Source: Candidatus Altarchaeales archaeon ex4484_2 (GTDB lineage: Archaea; Altiarchaeota; Altiarchaeia; IMC4; QMZM01). From it: DNA of 37,860 nt. The translations under genes were made by a program, and so were the position numbers. Shown piece by piece: positions 7,895 through 22,599 of the stretch. How positions within the stretch are numbered: the first letter of the stretch is position 1; the number at the start of each line of letters is the position of its first letter. The notes beneath the pieces were generated by a model, which was not told the DNA's origin, searched no databases, and worked only from the letters and a program-made list of their open reading frames with translations. The stretch covers positions 1 to 37,860 of the forward strand of contig NJEG01000004.1 of assembly GCA_002254565.1 (NCBI GenBank), read 5' to 3'.

Positions 7895-9351
7895 TTATTC
7901 CTCCGCAGGTCCTTGGTCCCGCCCACGAACATCCCTGAACCAAAACAAGAGAGCCGTATATTCTTCACTCCCTTTTCCTCATCCATCAACTCAACAATCT
8001 TCGGCCAGCAGAAGCCACCCTGGCACCGCCCCATAGAAGCCCTGCACCTGACCTTCACGGCATTCATGCTCCTAGCCCCCAGCGGATTATTTAAGGCGTC
8101 AAGGACTTCCTTCCTGGTTACTGTCTCGCACCTGCATACTATCTCCCCGTAACCAGGGTCCTTCCCTATCAGGGAGGCCTTTTCCTCATCAGATAGGGAG
8201 CTGAACCTCACAGGACCCTTACGTAAGGGATTAAAGTCCTTCTTTGGCCTTAACTCCTCTCTCCCACATATGAGATTTATAACCCGCTCTGCTATGGCCG
8301 GCGCAGCAGTCAAGCCCGGGCTCTCAATGCCCACCAGGTTGATGAAACCTTCATATTCCTCTCTCACAACGAAATCAGCCGTCTCCCCACTCCCCTCAGG
8401 AACCAGCTTCGGTCTTATGCCAGAAAAGCTGCGAATGAAATCCCCCCTCTTAAGAGAGGGAAGCATCTCACTGGCCTCAACGTAAAGCTGCTCCATAACA
8501 TCAGGTGTATTGCAGACGTCACAGACCTCCTGGATGTAGTCTGCAGAGGGCCCGAGCATTATATTACCGTCTACTGTTGGGGTCAGATGAACACCCAAGC
8601 CACCTGAGTCCTTCGGTGGTACTGGATAAACAAGCGTATTCAATAGATCCCCCACTCTCTTGTCCAAGATATGGTATTCACCCCTGCAGGGATAGATACG
8701 GTATCCGTCCACGCCAGCCATTGCCGATACCCGATCAGCATACAATCCCGCGCAGTTAATCAAGTACCTTGTTTCATAGACTCCTCCAGAAGTCTCCACC
8801 CCAAAAGACCCTTCCCCGGGATTGACTCCGGTAACCTGCGTGTTAAGCTTTATCTCTGCATCGTTCATTAATGCGTTCTCCGCTAACCCAATCGTCAGCT
8901 GGAATGGGTCCACTATGCCTGATGTCGGTGAATACAATGCCTTAACGGCCCCGATGTTGGGCTGTATTTTTTTTATCTCCTCCCTTCCAATAATCTTAAG
9001 CCCCCGGGTGCCGTTACGCTCCCCTCGCGCCCTGAGTTCCTCCAGGTAGGGTATCTCATCCTCCTTTTTCGCCACAACCAGTTTACCGGTCCGTATGTAT
9101 TCAGCACCAACCTCCTTGCAGAGGGTGGGGATCCTCTTATGGCCTTCAATGTTCAACTCAGCCTTCAGGGTATCTTGGGGGATATAGAATCCAGCGTGGA
9201 CTACTCCGGAATTCCTGCCTGAGGTTCCCATAGCAACATCGCATTCTTTTTCCAGAAGCAAAACCTTCGCATCGTACCTGGATAGCTCTCTGGCTATGCA
9301 ACAGCCGACCACTCCACCACCGACTATCAGGTAATCATATAAGCCGTCCAT
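7891..9351 (-). CDS. GlpA-like FAD-dependent dehydrogenase with C-terminal BFD [2Fe-2S] domain
   Basis: The preferred start is the ATG at 9351 (MDGLYDYLIVGGGVVGCCIA), which places the FAD motif at the N-terminus; an in-frame extension to 9405 adds only unconserved residues and overlaps the divergent gene. The body is a DAO-type flavin dehydrogenase (GTSGRNSGVVHAGFY, IVDPFQLTIGLAENA, GIESPGLTAAPAIAERV). The C-terminal part carries CxC...CxxxxCxxxxC-type cysteines (CRCETV, RCRASMGRCQGGFC) of a BFD-like [2Fe-2S] domain. With the two downstream genes it matches the GlpA/FAD-NAD/DUF1667 set. Glycerol-3-phosphate is the usual guess, but a 2-hydroxyacid (L-2-hydroxyglutarate oxidase-like) is also possible. 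No glycerol kinase or transporter is in the window. Confidence 0.85.
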   Translation of the reverse strand: MDGLYDYLIVGGGVVGCCIARELSRYDAKVLLLEKECDVAMGTSGRNSGVVHAGFYIPQDTLKAELNIEGHKRIPTLCKEVGAEYIRTGKLVVAKKEDEIPYLEELRARGERNGTRGLKIIGREEIKKIQPNIGAVKALYSPTSGIVDPFQLTIGLAENALMNDAEIKLNTQVTGVNPGEGSFGVETSGGVYETRYLINCAGLYADRVSAMAGVDGYRIYPCRGEYHILDKRVGDLLNTLVYPVPPKDSGGLGVHLTPTVDGNIMLGPSADYIQEVCDVCNTPDVMEQLYVEASEMLPSLKRGDFIRSFSGIRPKLVPEGSGETADFVVREEYEGFINLVGIESPGLTAAPAIAERVINLICGREELRPKKDFNPLRKGPVRFSSLSDEEKASLIGKDPGYGEIVCRCETVTRKEVLDALNNPLGARSMNAVKVRCRASMGRCQGGFCWPKIVELMDEEKGVKNIRLSCFGSGMFVGGTKDLRRNK

Positions 9352-11689: not shown

Positions 11690-13663
11690 ATGGGCTTGGT
11701 TAAAAAGAGACATCCCCGGATTGGTGTCTACGTCTGTCACTGTGGACAGAACATAAGTTCTGTAGTAAACGTTTCTGAGGTTAGAGAATACGCTGAATCA
11801 CTGCCCAATGTTGTCCTGGCAAGAGAGAACAAGTATACATGCAGCGACCTGGGGCAGAGTTCTATAGCGAAGGATATAAAAAAGCATGAACTCGAAAGGG
11901 TTGTTGTAGCCTCCTGCTCCCCTAGACTGCATGAGATAGCGTTCAGGGAAGTTCTTGACTCCAGCGGACTGAACCCCTATCTATTCGAGATGGTTAACAT
12001 AAGGGAGCAGTGTTCCTGGGTTCACCCAAAGGATAAGAAGAGGGCGACAGAGAAGGCCAAGGATTTGGTGCGGGCTGCTGTTGCCAGGTCCATGCTGCTT
12101 GAGCCGGTGGAGAAGATTAAAAAAAACGTAACCAAGGCTGTTCTGGTAATCGGGGGGGGTATTGCAGGAATAACATCAGCCCTGTATCTGGCCAGGGCAG
12201 GAATCAAGACCTACCTGGTGGAGAAGGAAGCCAGCATAGGAGGGCACATGGCCCAACTGGACAAGACTTATCCCACACTGGATTGCTCTCTTTGCATATT
12301 GTCGCCTAGGATGGTGGACGTGAAAAATGAACCCAACATCGAATTGCTCTCATACTCTGATGTGGTGAACGTGGAGGGCTATGTGGGAAATTTCATAGTC
12401 AGGGTTAGAAAAAATCCAAGGTACGTGGACGCGGAAAAGTGCATCAGCTGTGGAGCATGCGCTGAGGTCTGCCCTGTAAAGGTGGTGGATGAATTCAACC
12501 AGGGGATGACCCATAGGAAGGCGATTCACTTACAATTCCCTCAGGCGGTTCCAAACACCTACCTCATAGACAGAGTAAACTGCCTTCACTTCAAGACTGG
12601 AGCATGTCAACTATGCGCTAAGAAATGCGACAACAATGCCATAGACTTCAGCCAGAAGGAGGAGTTTCTGGATATAGACGTCGGCTCCATAGTCATAGCC
12701 ACCGGGTTCCAGTTGTTTGATGCGAAAAGAAAAAAGGAATACGGTTACGGCAGATTCGACAACGTTTTAACCAACCTCGATTTCGAGAGAATCCTGAGCG
12801 CTGACGGCCCCACGAGAGGTAAGATCAAAAGGCCTGCTGACAGCAAAAAACCAGATTCTATCGCATTCATACAGTGCGTGGGCTCAAGAGACGAGAACTT
12901 CAACGCCTACTGTTCGACAATCTGCTGCATGACCTCGCTGAAGCATGCCATGCAGGTCAAGGAAAAAAACCCCGGAACCGAGGTATACATATACTTCAAC
13001 GACATCAGGACAAGCGGTAAAGACCTTGAGGAATTCTACAAGAGAGGTAGGATTAGGGGGATATATTTTATCAGGGGATTACCCCCTGAGGTATTTGAGG
13101 ATCCTGAGACGGGGAAGCTTATCCTGCGCTCTGAGGATCTGAACATGAGCCAGATACTGGAAAAAAGAGTGGATATGGTTGTTCTGGCAGCTGGTATAGA
13201 GCCCTCACCCTCTGCAGAGAAAATAATCAGGAGACTCCACCTGAACCAGAGCCCGGACGGGTTTATCATGGAAGCCCACCCAAAGCTGAGACCGGTAGAC
13301 ACCAATATAGCGGGTGTTTACATAGCAGGATGTGCACAGTTCCCGAAGGGCATTCCTGAGGTAGTAGCCCAGGCGGGTGCTGCTGCTATGGCCTCAACTG
13401 AGGTTGTCTTGAAGGATGAAATCCCAATAGAAGAGACAACAGCATTCGTCGATGAGGGGAAATGCAGCGGATGCGGTATCTGCGTGAATGTGTGCCCGTA
13501 TGAAGCAATCAAGTTGGCTGATGAGGGCATTGTTGAGATAAACGAGATACTCTGCAAGGGATGTGGCTCCTGCGCCGTTGCCTGTCCTTCTTCAGCTATA
13601 CAGCAGACTCATTTTTTGGATTCACAAATCAAGGCCCAGATTAAGGCACTTTTAGTGAGTTGA
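11690..13663 (+). CDS. hdrA: Heterodisulfide reductase-like flavin subunit HdrA
   Basis: This 657-residue protein is a standard-length HdrA, the FAD subunit at which electron bifurcation or confurcation occurs in Hdr complexes. The N-terminus has the Cys motif VYVCHCGQNI. The FAD Rossmann motif is VLVIGGGIAGITSALYLARAG, followed by the HdrA hallmark GGHMAQLDKTYPTLDCSLCI. Ferredoxin-like cluster motifs are CISCGACAEVCP, CQLCAKKCDNNAI, CSGCGICVNVCPYEA and CKGCGSCAVACPSS. It is the first gene of a tight run with mvhD and Flox-like genes. HdrB and HdrC (the catalytic and electron-wire subunits) are not in the window, so this is not evidence of methanogenesis. The partner disulfide or acceptor is unknown. 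Confidence 0.95.
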   Translation: MGLVKKRHPRIGVYVCHCGQNISSVVNVSEVREYAESLPNVVLARENKYTCSDLGQSSIAKDIKKHELERVVVASCSPRLHEIAFREVLDSSGLNPYLFEMVNIREQCSWVHPKDKKRATEKAKDLVRAAVARSMLLEPVEKIKKNVTKAVLVIGGGIAGITSALYLARAGIKTYLVEKEASIGGHMAQLDKTYPTLDCSLCILSPRMVDVKNEPNIELLSYSDVVNVEGYVGNFIVRVRKNPRYVDAEKCISCGACAEVCPVKVVDEFNQGMTHRKAIHLQFPQAVPNTYLIDRVNCLHFKTGACQLCAKKCDNNAIDFSQKEEFLDIDVGSIVIATGFQLFDAKRKKEYGYGRFDNVLTNLDFERILSADGPTRGKIKRPADSKKPDSIAFIQCVGSRDENFNAYCSTICCMTSLKHAMQVKEKNPGTEVYIYFNDIRTSGKDLEEFYKRGRIRGIYFIRGLPPEVFEDPETGKLILRSEDLNMSQILEKRVDMVVLAAGIEPSPSAEKIIRRLHLNQSPDGFIMEAHPKLRPVDTNIAGVYIAGCAQFPKGIPEVVAQAGAAAMASTEVVLKDEIPIEETTAFVDEGKCSGCGICVNVCPYEAIKLADEGIVEINEILCKGCGSCAVACPSSAIQQTHFLDSQIKAQIKALLVS

Positions 13664-13664
13664 T

Positions 13665-14111
13665 ATGGAAGCGAAAAATAAGAAGGATGGGTTTGAGCCC
13701 CGGATTGTCGGGTTCCTGTGTAACTGGTGCTCTTACGCTGGAGCAGACCTGGCGGGCACCTCCAGGATAGAGTATCCCCCAAATCTGAGAGCTGTCAGGG
13801 TTATGTGCTCCTCCAGAGTCAACCCACTTTTTGTGTTGAAGGCATTCCAGGAGGGGGCTGACGGCGTCTTCATAGGAGGGTGTCACCCACAGGACTGTCA
13901 CTATATGGAGGGTAACTACTACGCTAGGAGAAGGTTCATGCTCCTAAAGCGGTTGATTGAGTACATGGGAATCAACCCCGGAAGGCTTAGGGTTGAGTGG
14001 GTGTCCGCATCCGAGGGAGACAGATTCGCCAAGATAGTAAGGGAGTTCACCGGTGATTTAAAGAGGCTTGGCCCACTGGATTTAAGGGAGAGGGTGTGTG
14101 ATGGGATCTGA
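13665..14111 (+). CDS. mvhD: MvhD/FloxD-type Fe-S electron-transfer subunit
   Basis: This 148-residue protein has the MvhD pattern: FLCNWCSYAGADLAGTSR, VRVMCSSRV, ALQ-like FVLKAFQEGADGVFIGGCH and QDCHY, with conserved Cys at each site for a [2Fe-2S] cluster. MvhD couples an electron donor module to HdrA. Here the donor module would be the NAD(P)-type proteins downstream rather than a hydrogenase, because no hydrogenase subunit occurs in the window. The ATG is one base after the hdrA stop and the end overlaps the next gene, so the two are translationally linked. FloxD is the equivalent name in the Flox system. Confidence 0.92.
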   Translation: MEAKNKKDGFEPRIVGFLCNWCSYAGADLAGTSRIEYPPNLRAVRVMCSSRVNPLFVLKAFQEGADGVFIGGCHPQDCHYMEGNYYARRRFMLLKRLIEYMGINPGRLRVEWVSASEGDRFAKIVREFTGDLKRLGPLDLRERVCDGI

Positions 14112-14952
14112 TACAGAGAATGCTTTAAAAAGGGAGGCCAGGAATCTCCTAAAGAAGGGAGACGTTGATTTAGTCCTTGGATACTGTATGGAAGGAGATA
14201 ATGTGATTCCCTGCTTTATCTCATCTCCAGGGGAGGTGGACGGGCTTGTGTGGAATAACCGGTGTAAGAATAATCTGGCAGTGTATTTACGGGAGTTGGA
14301 GGGTAGGGTTGCTGTTGTAGCCAAGGGCTGTGATTCCAGGGCGATTGTTGAGCTGCTTAAGGCTAAGCAGGTGGAAAGGGAGGATTTGATTATTTTGGGG
14401 GTGTCATGTAGGGGGATGGTGGATAAAGAGGGTGAAGAGTATGGAAGCTGCAGGGTTTGCTTGCACAGGAATCCAGTAGTATATGACCTCTTTGTAGGGG
14501 AGAAAGTCAGCGAGAGGGAGGAGAGGGATGTGGATGAATTAGAGTCATTATCCCTTAGAGAGAGGCTTGAGTTCTGGAGTAAACAGTTCAGAAAGTGCAT
14601 CAACTGCTTGGCCTGCAGGAACGTGTGCCCCATGTGTTTCTGCGAAGAGTGTGTCCTGGAGAAAAAAGACCCTGAGTGGATTACCAGGGCAGGGGATGCA
14701 AGCAATCTGTTTCTTTTACATGCAATTAAGGCAACGCATATGGCGGGCAGGTGTGTTGAGTGCGGGGAATGTGAGAGAGCATGTCCGGTAGATATTCCAT
14801 TGATGCACCTTTACTCCAGGGTATGCCGGGATGTGGAGGAGCTTTTTGGTGTTGAATCCGGGATGAATCTGGAGGATAAGCCACCTCTAGCTGCCTTTGA
14901 TTTAGAGCGGGATGCTATGCTGGAGGAGAATGAAAAAAATAAGAGAGGATGA
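14101..14952 (+). CDS. FloxC/FrhB-like 4Fe-4S dicluster protein
   Basis: The ATG at 14101 is preferred over the GTG three bases upstream; it overlaps mvhD by 11 bases. The N-terminal half resembles the FrhB/FdhB (F420 hydrogenase beta) fold in pieces such as VVAKGCDSRAIVELLKAKQV and ILGVSCRGMV, with extra Cys. The C-terminal half has two ferredoxin-type clusters, CINCLACRNVCPMCFCEEC near residue 165 and CVECGECERACPVDIPL near residue 217. It occupies the FloxC position between an MvhD-like and a HydB-like gene. It probably relays electrons between the flavin module and HdrA; whether it binds F420 cannot be told from sequence. Confidence 0.82.
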   Translation: MGSDTENALKREARNLLKKGDVDLVLGYCMEGDNVIPCFISSPGEVDGLVWNNRCKNNLAVYLRELEGRVAVVAKGCDSRAIVELLKAKQVEREDLIILGVSCRGMVDKEGEEYGSCRVCLHRNPVVYDLFVGEKVSEREERDVDELESLSLRERLEFWSKQFRKCINCLACRNVCPMCFCEECVLEKKDPEWITRAGDASNLFLLHAIKATHMAGRCVECGECERACPVDIPLMHLYSRVCRDVEELFGVESGMNLEDKPPLAAFDLERDAMLEENEKNKRG

Positions 14953-15925
14953 TGTAATAAAACTCTTGAACGAGTTAAGGAAGAAATATGAGGTAATCGC
15001 TCCCGTAAAGCTGGACGGGAGGGTCTACTTCAAGACCTTGGGAGAGGGTGATGTGCTCACCCTGGACTACGTTAACTCGGTTGTTTCCCCGAAGGATTTT
15101 TTCCTGCCCCAAAAGGAGAGGATTCTGGAGTTCAGCGAATCCGGTGGGGAGGTTACTGTGGAAGACGAGCTCAGCTCTAAAAAGAGGGTTTTTTTCGGCA
15201 TCAGGCCCTGTGACGTAAACGCCCTCCTGATTCTTGATTCAGTGGCCAGGGAGGGGTTCGAGGACCCCTACTACCTGGGAAGGAGGGATAATACCCTATT
15301 GATTTCACTGGAGTGTGTTGAGCCGGGGGATGATTGCTTTTGTTCTGTATTCAACACAGGACCTTCACTGGATGAGGGTGCTGATTTAGTCTTTACTGAC
15401 ATCGGCGATTTTTATCTGGTTAAATCCTTGACTGATGAGGGTGAAAGGCTGGTCTCAGGATCTGAATTTTTCAGGAAGGCAACAGGAGGGGATGAGGAAA
15501 CAGCTGGGAAAAAGAGGAAGGAATGTGTTAAGGGGATGGAGAGCCTTGATTTAAGGAATTTCTCAGTTGATGAGGAGGTGGTGAAAGAGAAGGCAAAAAG
15601 GTGTCTCTACTGCTACAGCTGCACATTTATCTGCCCGACATGCTATTGTTTTGATGTAGTGGACCGGATGGATTTATATTCCAGGAATGGTGAGAGAATG
15701 CGGTTCTGGGATTCCTGCATGAACCCGTCCTTTACCGAGATGGCCGGTAACTTCAACCCGAGAGACGGTATGGTGGGAAGGTTTATGAACCGCATAAACC
15801 ATAAACTAAGATACATGCGGGATAGGTATGGAGTCTACGGCTGCGTAGGATGCGGCCGCTGTATTAGAAACTGCCCTGCAGGGATTAGCATGCTGGAGAT
15901 TCTCAGGGAGGGTGTGAGAAAATGA
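14930..15925 (+). CDS. HydB/FloxB-like 4Fe-4S electron-transfer protein (sulfhydrogenase beta-type)
   Basis: The ATG at 14930 (MKKIREDDVIKLLNE) is preferred because it follows a GGAGGAG ribosome-binding site; the upstream in-frame ATG at 14912 lacks one. The gene overlaps the previous one by 23 bases. Motifs of the sulfhydrogenase beta/FloxB family are FFGIRPCDVNALLILD, YYLGRRDNTLLISLECVEPG and CFCSVFNTGP. Two clusters follow, RCLYCYSCTFICPTCYCFDV and CVGCGRCIRNCPAGI. It should transfer electrons from the FAD/NAD(P) subunit encoded next into the Hdr module. The length of 331 residues is typical. Confidence 0.87.
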   Translation: MKKIREDDVIKLLNELRKKYEVIAPVKLDGRVYFKTLGEGDVLTLDYVNSVVSPKDFFLPQKERILEFSESGGEVTVEDELSSKKRVFFGIRPCDVNALLILDSVAREGFEDPYYLGRRDNTLLISLECVEPGDDCFCSVFNTGPSLDEGADLVFTDIGDFYLVKSLTDEGERLVSGSEFFRKATGGDEETAGKKRKECVKGMESLDLRNFSVDEEVVKEKAKRCLYCYSCTFICPTCYCFDVVDRMDLYSRNGERMRFWDSCMNPSFTEMAGNFNPRDGMVGRFMNRINHKLRYMRDRYGVYGCVGCGRCIRNCPAGISMLEILREGVRK

Positions 15926-16728
15926 GCAACCAGTATATCCCCCAGACGGTGGAAATACTCGGGATTTTAGAGGAGAGCAGGGATGTGAAGACACTGAGGT
16001 TGGATGTACGGAATTTGAGGCATGAGCCGGGGCAGTTCATGGAGTTGTCTGTTTTTGGCTACGGGGAGATACCGGTATCCATAAGCTCCAGCCCCACGCT
16101 AGAAGACTACATTGATTTGAGCGTGAAGAACGTGGGCAGCGTTACCTCAGTAGTTCATGAAGCAGAGCCGGGGGATACTGTTGGGGTCAGGGGACCATAC
16201 GGTAGGGGCTTTCCCGTCAGGGAGGTGGGTGGACGCGACCTGCTTTTCATCGGTGGGGGTATTGGTTTAGCCCCCCTAAGGTCATTTATAGACTACATAA
16301 GGGATGAGAGAGACGGCTTTGGGGATGTTTCCATACTCTACGGGGCCAGAACCGCTGATGATATGGTCTTCAGGCAGGAATTCGATGACTGGCGCAGCAT
16401 GTTTGATTTGCATTTGATTGCTGATGTGGAGTCTGAGGGATGGTATGGGAGGGTGGGCTTCGTTAACGAGCTCCTGGCAGATGTGTCCCCGGACATCAAA
16501 AACACTTATGCTGTGGTATGCGGCCCCTCCATAATGATGAAGTCTGTGGTGAAGGGCTTGAAGGATATGCAGTTCCCTGATGAACAGATTATTTTATCCT
16601 TCGAAAGAAGGATGAAATGCGGCATAGGGAAATGCGGCCACTGTAATATAGGAGACAGGTATGTATGTGTTGATGGGCCTGTTTTCAGCTACGATAAAGT
16701 GAGGGGTTACCGGGAAATCTGGGGTTGA
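15922..16728 (+). CDS. HydG/FloxA-like FAD- and NAD(P)-binding reductase subunit
   Basis: This 268-residue ferredoxin-NADP reductase-type protein begins in an ATGA overlap with the floxB-like stop. It has the FAD-binding barrel (HEPGQFMELSVFGYGEIPVSISS), a pyrophosphate loop (VGVRGPYGRGFPV), the NAD(P) motif LLFIGGGIGLAPLRSFIDY and YAVVCGPSIMM. A C-terminal Cys cluster CGIGKCGHCNIGDRYVC would bind [2Fe-2S]. This is the NAD(P)-interacting component of sulfhydrogenase gamma/FloxA. It is the most downstream electron module of the HdrA run, so NAD(P)H is the probable donor or acceptor for the whole complex. Confidence 0.9.
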   Translation: MSNQYIPQTVEILGILEESRDVKTLRLDVRNLRHEPGQFMELSVFGYGEIPVSISSSPTLEDYIDLSVKNVGSVTSVVHEAEPGDTVGVRGPYGRGFPVREVGGRDLLFIGGGIGLAPLRSFIDYIRDERDGFGDVSILYGARTADDMVFRQEFDDWRSMFDLHLIADVESEGWYGRVGFVNELLADVSPDIKNTYAVVCGPSIMMKSVVKGLKDMQFPDEQIILSFERRMKCGIGKCGHCNIGDRYVCVDGPVFSYDKVRGYREIWG

Positions 16729-16733
16729 GCTGA

Positions 16734-17306
16734 ATGGACGAAAAGGATATTGTTGTAGTATCGGGTTTGCCTAGAAGCGGCACATCCATGCTTATGAAGA
16801 TGATTGAGGCTGGTGGAATCAAACCCTTAACTGACAGGGAGAAAGGAGCTGATATAGACAACCCACAGGGCTATTATGAGTTTGAGCGGGTTAAGGGATT
16901 ACCAGAGGATGTTAGCTGGCTGGATGACGCGAGAGGTAAAGCTGTTAAGGTTCTGGCTGAGCTGGTGAAGCACCTGCCTGATGAATACCACTACAGGGTT
17001 ATTTTCATGCAGAGACGGATTCCGGAGATTATCGAGTCCCAGAAGAAGATGCTTGTTAGACGTGGGGAGGACCCTGAAAAGGTCTCTGACGAGGAGATGA
17101 TGTTGCTATTGGGGAAATACCTGAAGTTGATGATGTCTTACATCAGGGGTAAAGACAATATGGAGGTCTTGTTTGTGAGCTATAATGATGTTATATCGCA
17201 CCCTGGAAGGGAGGTAAAGGCTATTAATGAATTCCTTGGTGGGTTTTTGGATGAAAAGAGTATGGTTTCGGTAGTAGATGAGGGCCTGTATCGGAACAGG
17301 GTTTAG
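16734..17306 (+). CDS. Sulfotransferase family protein (PAPS-type P-loop)
   Basis: This 190-residue protein has the 5'-phosphosulfate-binding P-loop VVSGLPRSGTSMLMKMI at the N-terminus and a possible 3'-phosphate-binding strand and loop (VLFVSYNDVISHP) near residue 145, followed by a helix EVKAINEFLGG. It is short relative to many sulfotransferases, and the acceptor-binding region is reduced. It starts five bases after the floxA-like stop and ends two bases before a CysQ-type phosphatase, which would remove the PAP by-product. The acceptor is unknown; a polysaccharide, lipid or protein is possible. The P-loop assignment is solid, the PAPS dependence is inferred from family and context. Confidence 0.78.
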   Translation: MDEKDIVVVSGLPRSGTSMLMKMIEAGGIKPLTDREKGADIDNPQGYYEFERVKGLPEDVSWLDDARGKAVKVLAELVKHLPDEYHYRVIFMQRRIPEIIESQKKMLVRRGEDPEKVSDEEMMLLLGKYLKLMMSYIRGKDNMEVLFVSYNDVISHPGREVKAINEFLGGFLDEKSMVSVVDEGLYRNRV

Positions 17307-17308
17307 TC

Positions 17309-18097
17309 ATGGATTATTCCAACGAGTTGGAAGCGGTCTTGGATCTGGTTTCTGAGGCTGGTGAAAGGATTACGGAGGTATATGGGAGTGATTTCTCCGT
17401 AGACTATAAGGAGGATGATAGCCCCGTCACCCGGGCGGATTTGTTGTCTGAGGAAATCCTGCTGGAGGGTTTGGAGAGTTTTGGTTACGGTTTTCTATCG
17501 GAGGAGTCTGGCTTCTTGGGTTCAGGTAACGGAAGGTGTTGGGTGATTGACCCCCTTGATGGAACAAGGGATTTCGTTGAGGGAACAGATGATTTCTCTA
17601 TCCTGGTTGGTTTGTTGGATGGGGACAGACCTGTTTTGGGTGTCGTGCATGCGCCCTGCTTGGGAAAAAGCTGGTATGCGCTCAGGGGCAGAGGAGCCTT
17701 CGTGGACAGGAAACCTATTAAGGTCTCTGATGTCAGCGAACTGGATAGATGGAGGATGCTGGTCAGCAGGTTTCATCTACGGGATGAGGATAAACAGGTT
17801 GCCAAGTCTCTTGGGGTATCCTCGTTCAGGGAGTCCGGCAGCATAGGCATCAAGTATTGCTTGATTGCTTCAGGGGAAGCAGAGTTGTGCGTGTACACAA
17901 CCTCCAGGCTTGGCTTCTGGGATTGCTGCGCCCCCCAGGTTATCCTGAAGGAGGCTGGTGGTCTTGTTTTTGACGTTCACGGTAATCCAGTGGTTTACGA
18001 CCTTGATTCAGAGCCCTGGAGGATGGAGCACGGCTTCATCGGCTGCAACGGCAGACACAGGAAAGAGATACTTGAAGCGGTGGAGAATGCTCTGTAG
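17309..18097 (+). CDS. cysQ: Inositol monophosphatase-superfamily phosphatase, CysQ/PAP phosphatase-like
   Basis: This 262-residue protein has the superfamily metal sites: DDSPVTRADLLSEE, FLSEESG, the signature VIDPLDGTRDFVEG, and the late GFWDCCAPQVILKEAGG motif (WD...G). The sequence DFSILVGLLDGDRPVLGVVHAP is typical of CysQ (3'(2'),5'-bisphosphate nucleotidase), which turns PAP to AMP. The immediate upstream gene is a sulfotransferase, which strengthens the PAP phosphatase reading. Inositol-1-phosphatase or fructose-1,6-bisphosphatase activity, common for archaeal members, remains possible. It is the last gene of the hdrA run; the convergent tRNA-Val follows. Confidence 0.82.
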   Translation: MDYSNELEAVLDLVSEAGERITEVYGSDFSVDYKEDDSPVTRADLLSEEILLEGLESFGYGFLSEESGFLGSGNGRCWVIDPLDGTRDFVEGTDDFSILVGLLDGDRPVLGVVHAPCLGKSWYALRGRGAFVDRKPIKVSDVSELDRWRMLVSRFHLRDEDKQVAKSLGVSSFRESGSIGIKYCLIASGEAELCVYTTSRLGFWDCCAPQVILKEAGGLVFDVHGNPVVYDLDSEPWRMEHGFIGCNGRHRKEILEAVENAL

Positions 18098-18138: not shown

Positions 18139-18212
18139 TGGGCCCGCCCGGACTTGAACCGGGGACCTTTGCCTTGTAAGGGCAACGTCATAGCCGACTA
18201 GACCACGAGCCC
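18139..18212 (-). tRNA. tRNA-Val (anticodon UAC)
   Basis: The minus strand folds as a cloverleaf. The acceptor stem is GGGCTCG with CGGGCCC (one G-U pair), the discriminator is A, and the D stem has three pairs (GTC/GAC). The anticodon stem TTGCC/GGCAA encloses the loop CTTACAA, giving anticodon TAC. The T arm is CCCGG-TTCAAGT-CCGGG. The length is 74 with the discriminator; the CCA tail is not encoded and there is no intron. It sits alone between cysQ and the Nudix gene. Confidence 0.95.
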
Positions 18213-20710: not shown

Positions 20711-21634
20711 ATGATTAAGTTTTACATACCAGACGGGCACCTGGAAGAGAGGACGCTGCAACTCTTCAGGAGAGCAGGGTTCGAGATAAGCATGAGCGAG
20801 AGAGGATACAATCCTGACATAGACGATCCAGAGATAGTGTTGAAACGCATCAGACCACAGGACTTCCCCTTCGTGGTCAGCTTAGGTAAGGGTGATCTGG
20901 CCGTTACCGGCTCGGATATACTGGAAGACTTCAGGCTGGGCAACCCAAAAAGAGGTGGGGAAATCAAGAAGATAATGGACTTGGGTTTCGGAGCCACCAG
21001 GCTGGTCACAGCAATATCAGAGGAGATGCTCCCGGATATTGAATCGATTAAGGACTTCAGCAGGTATTCGGAAAAGCTTGAGAGGGAGGGGAAAAAGGCT
21101 GTTGTAGCAACCGAGTACTATAACATCGCCAAAAAATACCTTCAGGATAATGGCATCAACGCCATAATAGACAAGCCGGCCGGCAAAACAGAGGCCTGGA
21201 TTATTCCACCAACGCCTGAAGCTGACCTGATTATTGAAACCATGGAGACAGGTAAAACAATAAGAGAAAACAGGTGCCGCATCATAGACGAGGTGATGGA
21301 AGCCAGCTCTGTGTTGATAGCCAACAGGAAATCCCTGCAAGATGAGAAGAAAAAAAAGAAAATCAGTGAAATAGTTGATTTATTCAGGGGAGCCTTGAAG
21401 GGTAAAGGCAAAGTCAACGTGTTCATGAACATCATGGACGACGTGAACCTCCAGCCAGTACTGGATACATTAAGCGATTACGTGGAAAAACCCACCATAA
21501 ACGATTTAAGGGGTGGGGGATATGATGTTTTCATAGTGATCGATGAGAAAGAACTGAAGTATCTGCTTCCTAAGTTAAGGAAGACGGGCGCCAGCTCTAT
21601 TGCCATATCAGATACTAGGATGCTGATTAGTTAA
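20711..21634 (+). CDS. hisG: ATP phosphoribosyltransferase, long form
   Basis: This 307-residue enzyme catalyses the first committed step of histidine synthesis (ATP + PRPP). The N-terminus (IKFYIPDGHLEERTLQLFRRAG), DLAVTGSDILED, the PRPP loop region ADLIIETMETGKTIRENR and a C-terminal regulatory domain (VNVFMNIMDDVNLQPVLDTL ... RKTGASSIAISDTRMLI) mark the long HisG type that binds histidine for feedback inhibition. It is not in a his operon here; the neighbours are acdB (divergent) and a surface protein whose stop overlaps its own. No other his gene is in the window. Confidence 0.93.
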   Translation: MIKFYIPDGHLEERTLQLFRRAGFEISMSERGYNPDIDDPEIVLKRIRPQDFPFVVSLGKGDLAVTGSDILEDFRLGNPKRGGEIKKIMDLGFGATRLVTAISEEMLPDIESIKDFSRYSEKLEREGKKAVVATEYYNIAKKYLQDNGINAIIDKPAGKTEAWIIPPTPEADLIIETMETGKTIRENRCRIIDEVMEASSVLIANRKSLQDEKKKKKISEIVDLFRGALKGKGKVNVFMNIMDDVNLQPVLDTLSDYVEKPTINDLRGGGYDVFIVIDEKELKYLLPKLRKTGASSIAISDTRMLIS

Positions 21635-22599
21635 TTGCCCGCAAATTCCCCCGTACAGGATTCCCTAACAGCAGCATCTGTTATGCTACCGCATAGGTTT
21701 ATGTTTCTCTGGATCATGCTCAGCTCGTAGAAACATTGATCCCTCCAGTCCAGGTCCCCGGCAAGGTTACATAATGCTGGATCCAGCAGGTGTACAGCTA
21801 ATTCCTTGATGCAGATGCTCTCCCACTCACCTGAGGTGATCAGGTCACATACGGAGATGTTGTTGTTGTTTCTGGCTACCTGCGTGTAACAATACCACCG
21901 CCAATCTTCCTCCTCCAGGTTGCATTCACCAACGAGGGTCTTGTTTTCTGTTGTGGTCTTGTAACAGGATAACTTCATCTGGTAGTTCATCACATGTCTG
22001 CAGAGGTCAGCTTCCAGTTTCTCTAACGCGATGGCAGCGTAGCATTCATCTTTCTTGCGCTGGAACATCAGCCGGGAGCAGATGGACTCATTAAGGCGCT
22101 TTACGGCCATATTCTTCATGCACTCATCTATCAACACATCCTGGTTTATGTAGGAGCAAATGGATATGTTATCTTTATTCATGGCCAGGTCGTTGTAGCA
22201 GCCGTATATGTTCTCGGATAAATGGATTCCACGGCATATCTCTTCATCATCTAGGAGGATCGCTACATTCCAAAGGCACTCATCCTTCCATTTAGTGCTT
22301 ATTATTTCTCTGCAGTATTCAGGGTCTCTCTCCCTAACCCCCTCATCCTTGAAGCATTCATCCCTCAGCTGCTCGTCTATTATATCATAGCATACCACCC
22401 AGGGTATGGTAATCCCGGTCGATGATGTTGTCCTGGTTGTTGAAGAGGATGTGTTTGTTGTTGAGGTGGTGGTTGATGACGTGGTTGTTGTTGAAGTAGT
22501 AGTAGTAGTAGTAGTTGTGGTTGTGCTCTTCCCGTCATCTATGCAGCAGGGGCAGGTGAATAATGCCGCCAGCGTTATCAGCATGAATATTTTTTTCAT
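21631..22599 (-). CDS. Exported Thr-rich protein with about nine Cys-paired ~26-residue repeats
   Basis: This 322-residue protein has a signal sequence (KIFMLITLAALFTCPCC); whether a Cys is lipidated is uncertain because the box LFTC is not a good lipobox. A run of about 40 Thr/Ser follows. The rest is about nine consecutive units of roughly 26 residues, each with a first Cys after W/R-x-E/D (KDECLW, IDECMK, KDECYA, RDQCFY) and a second Cys near the end (EEIC, ISIC, ESIC, ADLC, ISVC, PALC, INLC). The even spacing suggests a superhelical array of disulfide-linked helix pairs. I know no defined family for it. A GGGAGGTG ribosome-binding site lies about nine bases upstream of the ATG. Confidence 0.85.
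   Translation of the reverse strand: MKKIFMLITLAALFTCPCCIDDGKSTTTTTTTTTTSTTTTSSTTTSTTNTSSSTTRTTSSTGITIPWVVCYDIIDEQLRDECFKDEGVRERDPEYCREIISTKWKDECLWNVAILLDDEEICRGIHLSENIYGCYNDLAMNKDNISICSYINQDVLIDECMKNMAVKRLNESICSRLMFQRKKDECYAAIALEKLEADLCRHVMNYQMKLSCYKTTTENKTLVGECNLEEEDWRWYCYTQVARNNNNISVCDLITSGEWESICIKELAVHLLDPALCNLAGDLDWRDQCFYELSMIQRNINLCGSITDAAVRESCTGEFAGN
22495..22515 (-). repeat. (ACT)7 trinucleotide run encoding the Thr stalk
   Basis: Seven tandem AGT units on the plus strand read as ACT (Thr) codons in the surface-protein gene. It sits in a longer ACN-rich stretch. Such runs are prone to slippage, which would change stalk length without changing frame. Seen directly. Confidence 0.9.

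Follow-up and report, generated by a model that had tools for sequence, protein, structure and literature searches.

A sulfotransferase gene paired with a CysQ-like phosphatase gene in an Altarchaeales archaeon and its probable part in sulfation

What might an archaeon do with a sulfotransferase encoded next to a CysQ-like phosphatase? The question arises from a window of 37,860 nucleotides – the whole stretch of DNA analysed, contig NJEG01000004.1 – of Candidatus Altarchaeales archaeon ex4484_2, in which the two genes follow a redox operon. The answer that we favour, and hold as a whole to be probable, is that the first gene encodes a cytosolic PAPS-dependent sulfotransferase (ST) and the second a CysQ-like 3′-phosphatase that would turn the released PAP into AMP and phosphate, lifting both product inhibition and PAP toxicity. 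PAPS would be made by a sat–APS kinase operon elsewhere in the genome, and the acceptor sugar would be sulfated before export. The archaeon can probably put sulfate groups on something; from the data below we infer PAPS as donor, PAP as the phosphatase substrate and a glycan as acceptor. Several points count against this explanation: the phosphatase scores below the TIGR01331 cut-off; the ST match to PF00685 is weak, no NCBIfam model covers it, and its PDB fold matches reach TM-scores of only about 0.5-0.6; sat is internally deleted in this genome, and neither sat nor APS kinase was found in G001; and PAPS synthesis lies outside the operon of the pair.

The pair and its neighbours

The relevant features of the window are as follows.

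11690..16728, plus strand: upstream redox operon (HdrA2-like, FlpD/MvhD, Fe-S protein, HydB/AsrA-like, HydG/AsrB-like)
16734..17306, plus strand: ST open reading frame, 190 aa, ATG start, small single-domain family (Pfam, AlphaFold/Foldseek)
16758..16787, plus strand: predicted 5′-phosphosulfate-binding loop VSGLPRSGTS, ST residues 9-18 (alignment of 33 relatives)
17013..17039, plus strand: predicted 3′-phosphate-binding motif R94...S102 (RRIPEIIES) of the ST (alignment of 33 relatives)
17309..18097, plus strand: open reading frame of the putative CysQ-like PAP phosphatase (FIG/IMPase superfamily), 262 aa, ATG start (Pfam, NCBIfam, tree and AU tests)
17549..17566, plus strand: metal-binding DPLDGT motif, phosphatase residues 81-86, followed by RDF as in the CysQ-type DGTxEF/DGTxDF
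17765..17776, plus strand: SRFH motif, phosphatase residues 153-156 (alignment)
18139..18212, minus strand: tRNA-Val (TAC), immediately 3′ of the pair, the operon boundary

The initial annotation described a P-loop sulfotransferase two bases from a CysQ-type phosphatase. Both reading frames are indeed there, 2 bp apart, and Pfam, the phosphatase tree and the motifs agree with the description. An AsrB/HydG-like gene, ending at 16728, precedes the ST. Conservation of the pair, a point raised at the outset, holds in both congeneric genomes: gene order is kept, and identities (ST/phosphatase) are 83%/83% in G001 and 72%/64% in G002, where the start of the phosphatase overlaps the end of the ST by 4 bp. 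Comparison with G001 gives dN/dS values (NG86) of about 0.28 for the ST and 0.25 for the phosphatase, indicating that both are real genes under purifying selection. The order of the redox operon is also identical in G001 and G002, as far as their contigs extend; the genus has thus kept the pair as part of a wider synteny, which gives no independent evidence for pairing. The reported attachment of the pair to the redox operon stands as an adjacency conserved within the genus, and a functional link does not follow from it. In a further archaeon (G157; L142:251-6974) the ST likewise has HdrA- and HdrC-like redox genes as neighbours, a resemblance to the window that may be coincidence.

Source of PAPS

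The proposal calls for a supply of PAPS, and the initial annotation had accordingly suggested a search for ATP sulfurylase and APS kinase genes. Both are present: on another contig of the genome (C40), sat and an APS kinase gene lie behind a gene for a small CopG-like protein, so that genes for PAPS synthesis are not lacking. The description of the pair as a self-contained sulfation unit nonetheless fails, because PAPS synthesis is encoded on that other contig and because sat, found in a single copy, carries an internal deletion. Relative to G002, this copy (L003:7930-8927) is missing codons 81-137 (57 codons) and is frame-shifted, reflecting either a real loss or an assembly error; no second copy was found in the MAG, which is 83% complete.

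The state of sat invites the view that the sulfation pathway is decaying, the pair persisting while PAPS is no longer made. Consistent with this, neither sat nor an APS kinase gene was found in G001 (75% complete). We nevertheless think decay unlikely: the CopG–sat–APS kinase operon is intact in G002 (L122), with a Sat of 378 aa; the APS kinase of the genome under study is itself intact; the ST and phosphatase are under purifying selection; and assembly error, or sequence missing from incomplete MAGs, would account equally well for the observations.

Evidence that the ST and PAPS synthesis belong together comes from their distribution. A bona fide APS kinase is found in 4 of 24 genomes of the order, all four with the ST; counted by genus, each occurs in 3 of 18, the APS kinase only in ST-bearing genera (Fisher p=0.0012). 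We claim this co-occurrence for APS kinase only, since a tie between the ST and ATP sulfurylase alone is contradicted by two genomes (G010 and G023) that have CysDN without a detected ST or APS kinase. Gene order points the same way: G007 carries CopG, sat, ST, TauE permease and apk in a row, and at the locus L066 a sat–apk fusion lies directly 5′ of the ST.

The CopG-like protein, termed a putative CopG regulator in earlier work (PMC8268124), is 70-80 aa long, ends in ...RLRALGYLD and precedes sat or cysD in many archaea. It has no Pfam match and no strong NCBIfam match. By reading, 17 of the 23 genomes that have its gene carry it next to, or in the vicinity of, sat, cysD or APS kinase; examples are L003 about 8900-9126 (contig C40 of the present genome, minus strand), L122:4542-4778, L123, L141:4366-4587, L121:60-287 and L053:168-407.

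Identity of the two enzymes

Assignment of the first gene rests on family, motifs and predicted fold. The protein passes the Pfam cut-offs of PF00685 (E=4.8e-10; 39.7 bits, cut-off 22) and PF13469 (E=2.4e-8; 34.9 bits, cut-off 27), and matched no NCBIfam model. Among 33 aligned relatives, residues V9, S10, G11, R14, S15, G16, T17 and S18 of the loop are invariant or nearly so, as are R94, E98 and S102; from general knowledge of sulfotransferases we take the loop to bind PAPS, and the spacing of 8 between R94 and S102 is that of the 3′-PB motif of SULTs. An AlphaFold model (pLDDT 90.4) finds its best Foldseek matches in PAP-bound TPST2 and TPST1, an olefin-synthase ST and 3-OST (3-O-sulfotransferases), with probability 1.00, E-values down to 2e-6 and TM of about 0.5-0.6; on this model the first gene is predicted to have a sulfotransferase fold. 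The common fold and both PAPS-binding motifs are thus shared with the PAPS-dependent sulfotransferases of PF00685/PF13469 (cytosolic SULTs, tyrosylprotein sulfotransferases), from which the present protein differs in being only ~190 aa long and in belonging to a small family of its own that also has members in Chloroflexota and other bacteria. Our analysis found no characterised member of this family.

Could the first gene encode some other P-loop enzyme, the pair acting on another nucleotide or phosphoester? The weak Pfam scores allow it, the canonical KTH catalytic histidine was not seen in the alignment of 33 relatives, and bacterial relatives are fused to TPR and type I phosphodiesterase domains rather than to known glycan enzymes. 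We give this reading little credence, given that the best-matching folds are PAP-bound sulfotransferases and that in several lineages family members adjoin sat, APS kinase and PAP phosphatase genes or lie in their midst. An alternative catalytic residue may be the invariant D34, which lies 20 residues past the loop arginine, a spacing that we take to be that of the catalytic Glu in tyrosylprotein sulfotransferases.

In the fusions just mentioned, from Halobeggiatoa, Thioploca and a Bacteroidia MAG (L083:3679-6555, L084:652-3435, L087:3016-5562), a type I phosphodiesterase-like domain precedes the ST domain; L083 comprises phosphodiesterase, TPR and ST, as confirmed by Pfam. Phosphodiesterase-like genes also adjoin the ST at L062, L066, L072 and L079.

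The ST family is scarce in archaea (7 of 394 archaeal genomes), and its other members are found in Chloroflexota, Acidobacteriota, Planctomycetota and others. Identities of 50-58% to Chloroflexota relatives versus 34-40% to the archaeal G022 and G007, together with a tree in which the seven archaeal STs do not form one clade (p=0.027), initially suggested horizontal gain from Chloroflexota. Once the long-branched G157 is left out, however, a single archaeal origin is not rejected and fits better (p=0.69), and we therefore do not claim such a transfer.

The second gene belongs to the broad Inositol_P family (PF00459; E=5.9e-53), and its best NCBIfam model is TIGR01331 (CysQ). Its score of 165.9 bits falls below the equivalog cut-off of 228.8, for which reason we call the protein CysQ-like and not a CysQ equivalog: the label CysQ-type given at the outset holds by tree and motif and falls short by this measure. 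Membership of so broad a family would also suit a phosphatase with a housekeeping role, acting on inositol phosphate, fructose bisphosphate or histidinol phosphate, whose place after the ST is due to chance; it is, moreover, the only family member found with the phosphatase query in its own MAG, and its best PDB sequence match is HisN of M. tuberculosis. Phylogeny argues to the contrary. A tree of 35 sequences sets it within the clade of CysQ and HAL2 (support 99/96), closest to CysQ (91/87), and AU tests reject its grouping with the archaeal FBPase/IMPases of MJ0109 and AF2372 type (p=0.0004), with IMPases from its own archaeal family (p=0.001) and with HisN (p=0.013), excluding the placement inside the inositol or fructose bisphosphatase group that had been named at the outset as a refuting outcome. 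The CysQ-type DGTxDF and SRxH motifs are both present; SRFH has its counterpart in the SRSH of CysQ proteins (for example B. thetaiotaomicron CysQ, 3b8b), and the IMPases found in this archaeal family lack the motif. With unrelated PAP phosphatases adjoining the same ST family elsewhere, as set out below, we consider a housekeeping role improbable.

The metal-binding catalytic residues of the phosphatase are intact: E65, E66, D81, D84, G85, T86 and D205 are invariant in an alignment of 14 sequences. The protein therefore shares its clade, metal-binding residues, DGTxD/EF and SRxH with the CysQ/HAL2 3′(2′),5′-bisphosphate nucleotidases (TIGR01331, TIGR01330), while forming a divergent sister lineage, with identities to CysQ proteins of about 31-35% and a score under the TIGR01331 cut-off. 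Outside the genus, the proteins most closely related to it (family f10) are encoded divergently beside APS kinase.

One of the main lines of evidence for a functional pair is that the ST family adjoins a PAP phosphatase in five lineages, the phosphatases being of three enzyme types: CysQ-like/CysQ, HAL2 and DHH. In the genus under study the CysQ-like gene is downstream of the ST; in G022 a CysQ gene that passes TIGR01331 (290.7 bits) is divergent from it; in a Chloroflexota locus (L068) a HAL2 gene passing TIGR01330 (311.7 bits) is 5 bp upstream; in an Anaerolineales locus (L073) a truncated, divergent gene of HAL2 type scores 263.4 bits against a cut-off of 267.05; and in the archaeon G109 a DHH-type gene lies within an operon of RHH, sat, DHH, ST, apk and sulfate symporter genes. 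The 33 ST loci were gathered by similarity to the ST, their neighbours playing no part in the choice, and at least five PAP phosphatase neighbours among them would arise by chance with p < 1e-6, a rough estimate that assumes genomes of 1500-3000 genes with one to three PAP phosphatases each. That unrelated PAP phosphatases interchange beside the ST strengthens the inference that the neighbour removes PAP. Together with the genes for PAPS synthesis and the phosphatase phylogeny, this recurrence bears out the original reading of ST and PAP phosphatase as partners.

PAP hydrolysis by DHH-type enzymes has been demonstrated for two archaea, Pyrococcus yayanosii and Methanothermococcus thermolithotrophicus (PyapApase and MtPAPP; PMC8268124, PMC10322725). 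The CysQ-like phosphatase presumably carries out the same reaction at the same place in the pathway, with an unrelated fold. No convincing DHH-type PAP phosphatase was found in G000 (the genome under study), G001 or G002 – one weak, partial match in G002 had an E-value of 2.4e-4 – in contrast to the ST-bearing G007 and G109, which have one; the two types look as if one replaces the other.

Reduction, surface glycans and the use of PAPS

PAPS may also feed sulfate reduction. Profile searches of G000, G001 and G002 found no PAPS reductase (PF01507) and no siroheme sulfite reductase (PF01077), although the latter search recovered the enzyme from 11 of the 14 genomes used as controls, M. jannaschii among them; AprA was not found in the three genomes either. 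The MAGs are incomplete (83%, 75% and 60%, respectively), so that each absence is weak alone; together they make assimilatory reduction unlikely. Elsewhere, strong PF01507 matches in G010, G017, G020, G022 and G023 were at first candidates for PAPS reductases and proved, from neighbours and sequence, to be mostly CysD beside CysN; the PF01507-type protein of G005, the one scanned, is CysD/CysH-like. That the HdrA/AsrAB-like operon supplies electrons for reducing PAPS to sulfite in assimilation, the phosphatase clearing PAP, is very improbable – even though this neighbouring operon encodes AsrA/AsrB-like electron-transfer proteins and a methanogen has a pathway of this kind, in which the PAPS reductase is unusual (PMC10322725) – in view of these absences and of a paired gene that encodes a sulfotransferase.

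Sulfation by the ST remains our preferred explanation, and a sugar belonging to a surface glycan or to its lipid-linked precursor is the most likely acceptor. A polysaccharide flippase gene adjoins sat–apk in both G000 and G002; UDP-sugar dehydrogenase genes adjoin the ST in G022 and in a Chloroflexota locus (L067), and are found close to the ST within the clusters of G109 and L066; and sulfated N-glycans are known from archaea such as Halobacterium salinarum (PMC11625862). It is from these observations that a glycan emerges as our best guess. The suggested tie to Thr-rich surface proteins is at most hinted at by a Thr-rich surface-protein gene beside sat–apk in G000 and G002. Within the window, 21631-22599 (minus strand) encodes a putative lipoprotein rich in Thr and Ser, the body of which is cysteine-rich and repeat-like; G001 and G002 have homologues in the corresponding neighbourhood.

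Archaeal sulfation is better described than the initial annotation allowed. Besides sulfated glycans (PMC11625862), sulfate-activation clusters have been published from Pyrococcus yayanosii (PYCH_17520-17560) and Aciduliprofundum boonei (Aboo_0230-0235), comprising CopG, sat, PAP phosphatase, phosphodiesterase and apk, with a sulfotransferase gene adjacent in other archaea (PMC8268124). The genus studied here has in common with them a CopG-like regulator grouped with ATP sulfurylase and APS kinase – in L003 with sat internally deleted, in L122 of G002 intact – as well as a PAP phosphatase. It differs in that the phosphatase is CysQ-like, of the FIG superfamily, rather than DHH, and goes with the ST behind a redox operon rather than with sat–apk. 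An AP-superfamily-like gene, read from sequence, lies near sat–apk in G002 (L122:529-2082) and G007; contig C40 stops short of the corresponding position. We take G109 (L141) probably to be A. boonei, since its gene order fits Aboo_0230-0235; a homologous ST lies inside its operon. A search of the literature on sulfotransferases with Chloroflexi or Altiarchaeales found nothing. The novel elements of the present case are the CysQ-like replacement, the fact that this phosphatase is paired with the ST apart from sat–apk, and the recurrent pairing of the ST with unrelated PAP phosphatases.

A C-terminal tail, L-x-x-L-G-Y-(L/M/I), is common to three unrelated folds in these neighbourhoods: the CopG-like protein (beside a bacterial ST at L079:5718-5930), CysD (L098, L102, L104, L110, L057) and the AP-superfamily phosphodiesterase (L062:8064-9692, L066:6825-7823, L074:3086-4996). 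It is possibly a shared docking tail. One could go further and imagine the ST family, CopG-like protein, CysD and type I phosphodiesterase as a single sulfation machine conserved across Archaea and Bacteria and joined by this tail (L-x-x-L-G-Y-L/M), with the CysQ-like enzyme replacing DHH for PAP removal in this genus; we offer this as a doubtful, speculative idea.

Several archaea have genes for sulfate activation and no route to sulfide; the use of their PAPS has been stated to be unknown, and a non-canonical sulfotransferase suggested (PMC10322725). The present locus and its relatives in G007, G022 and G109 supply concrete sulfotransferase candidates together with a matching PAP phosphatase, and so make the question of archaeal PAPS use testable. 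They further show that the PAP phosphatases employed by archaeal sulfation units are interchangeable and unrelated to one another.
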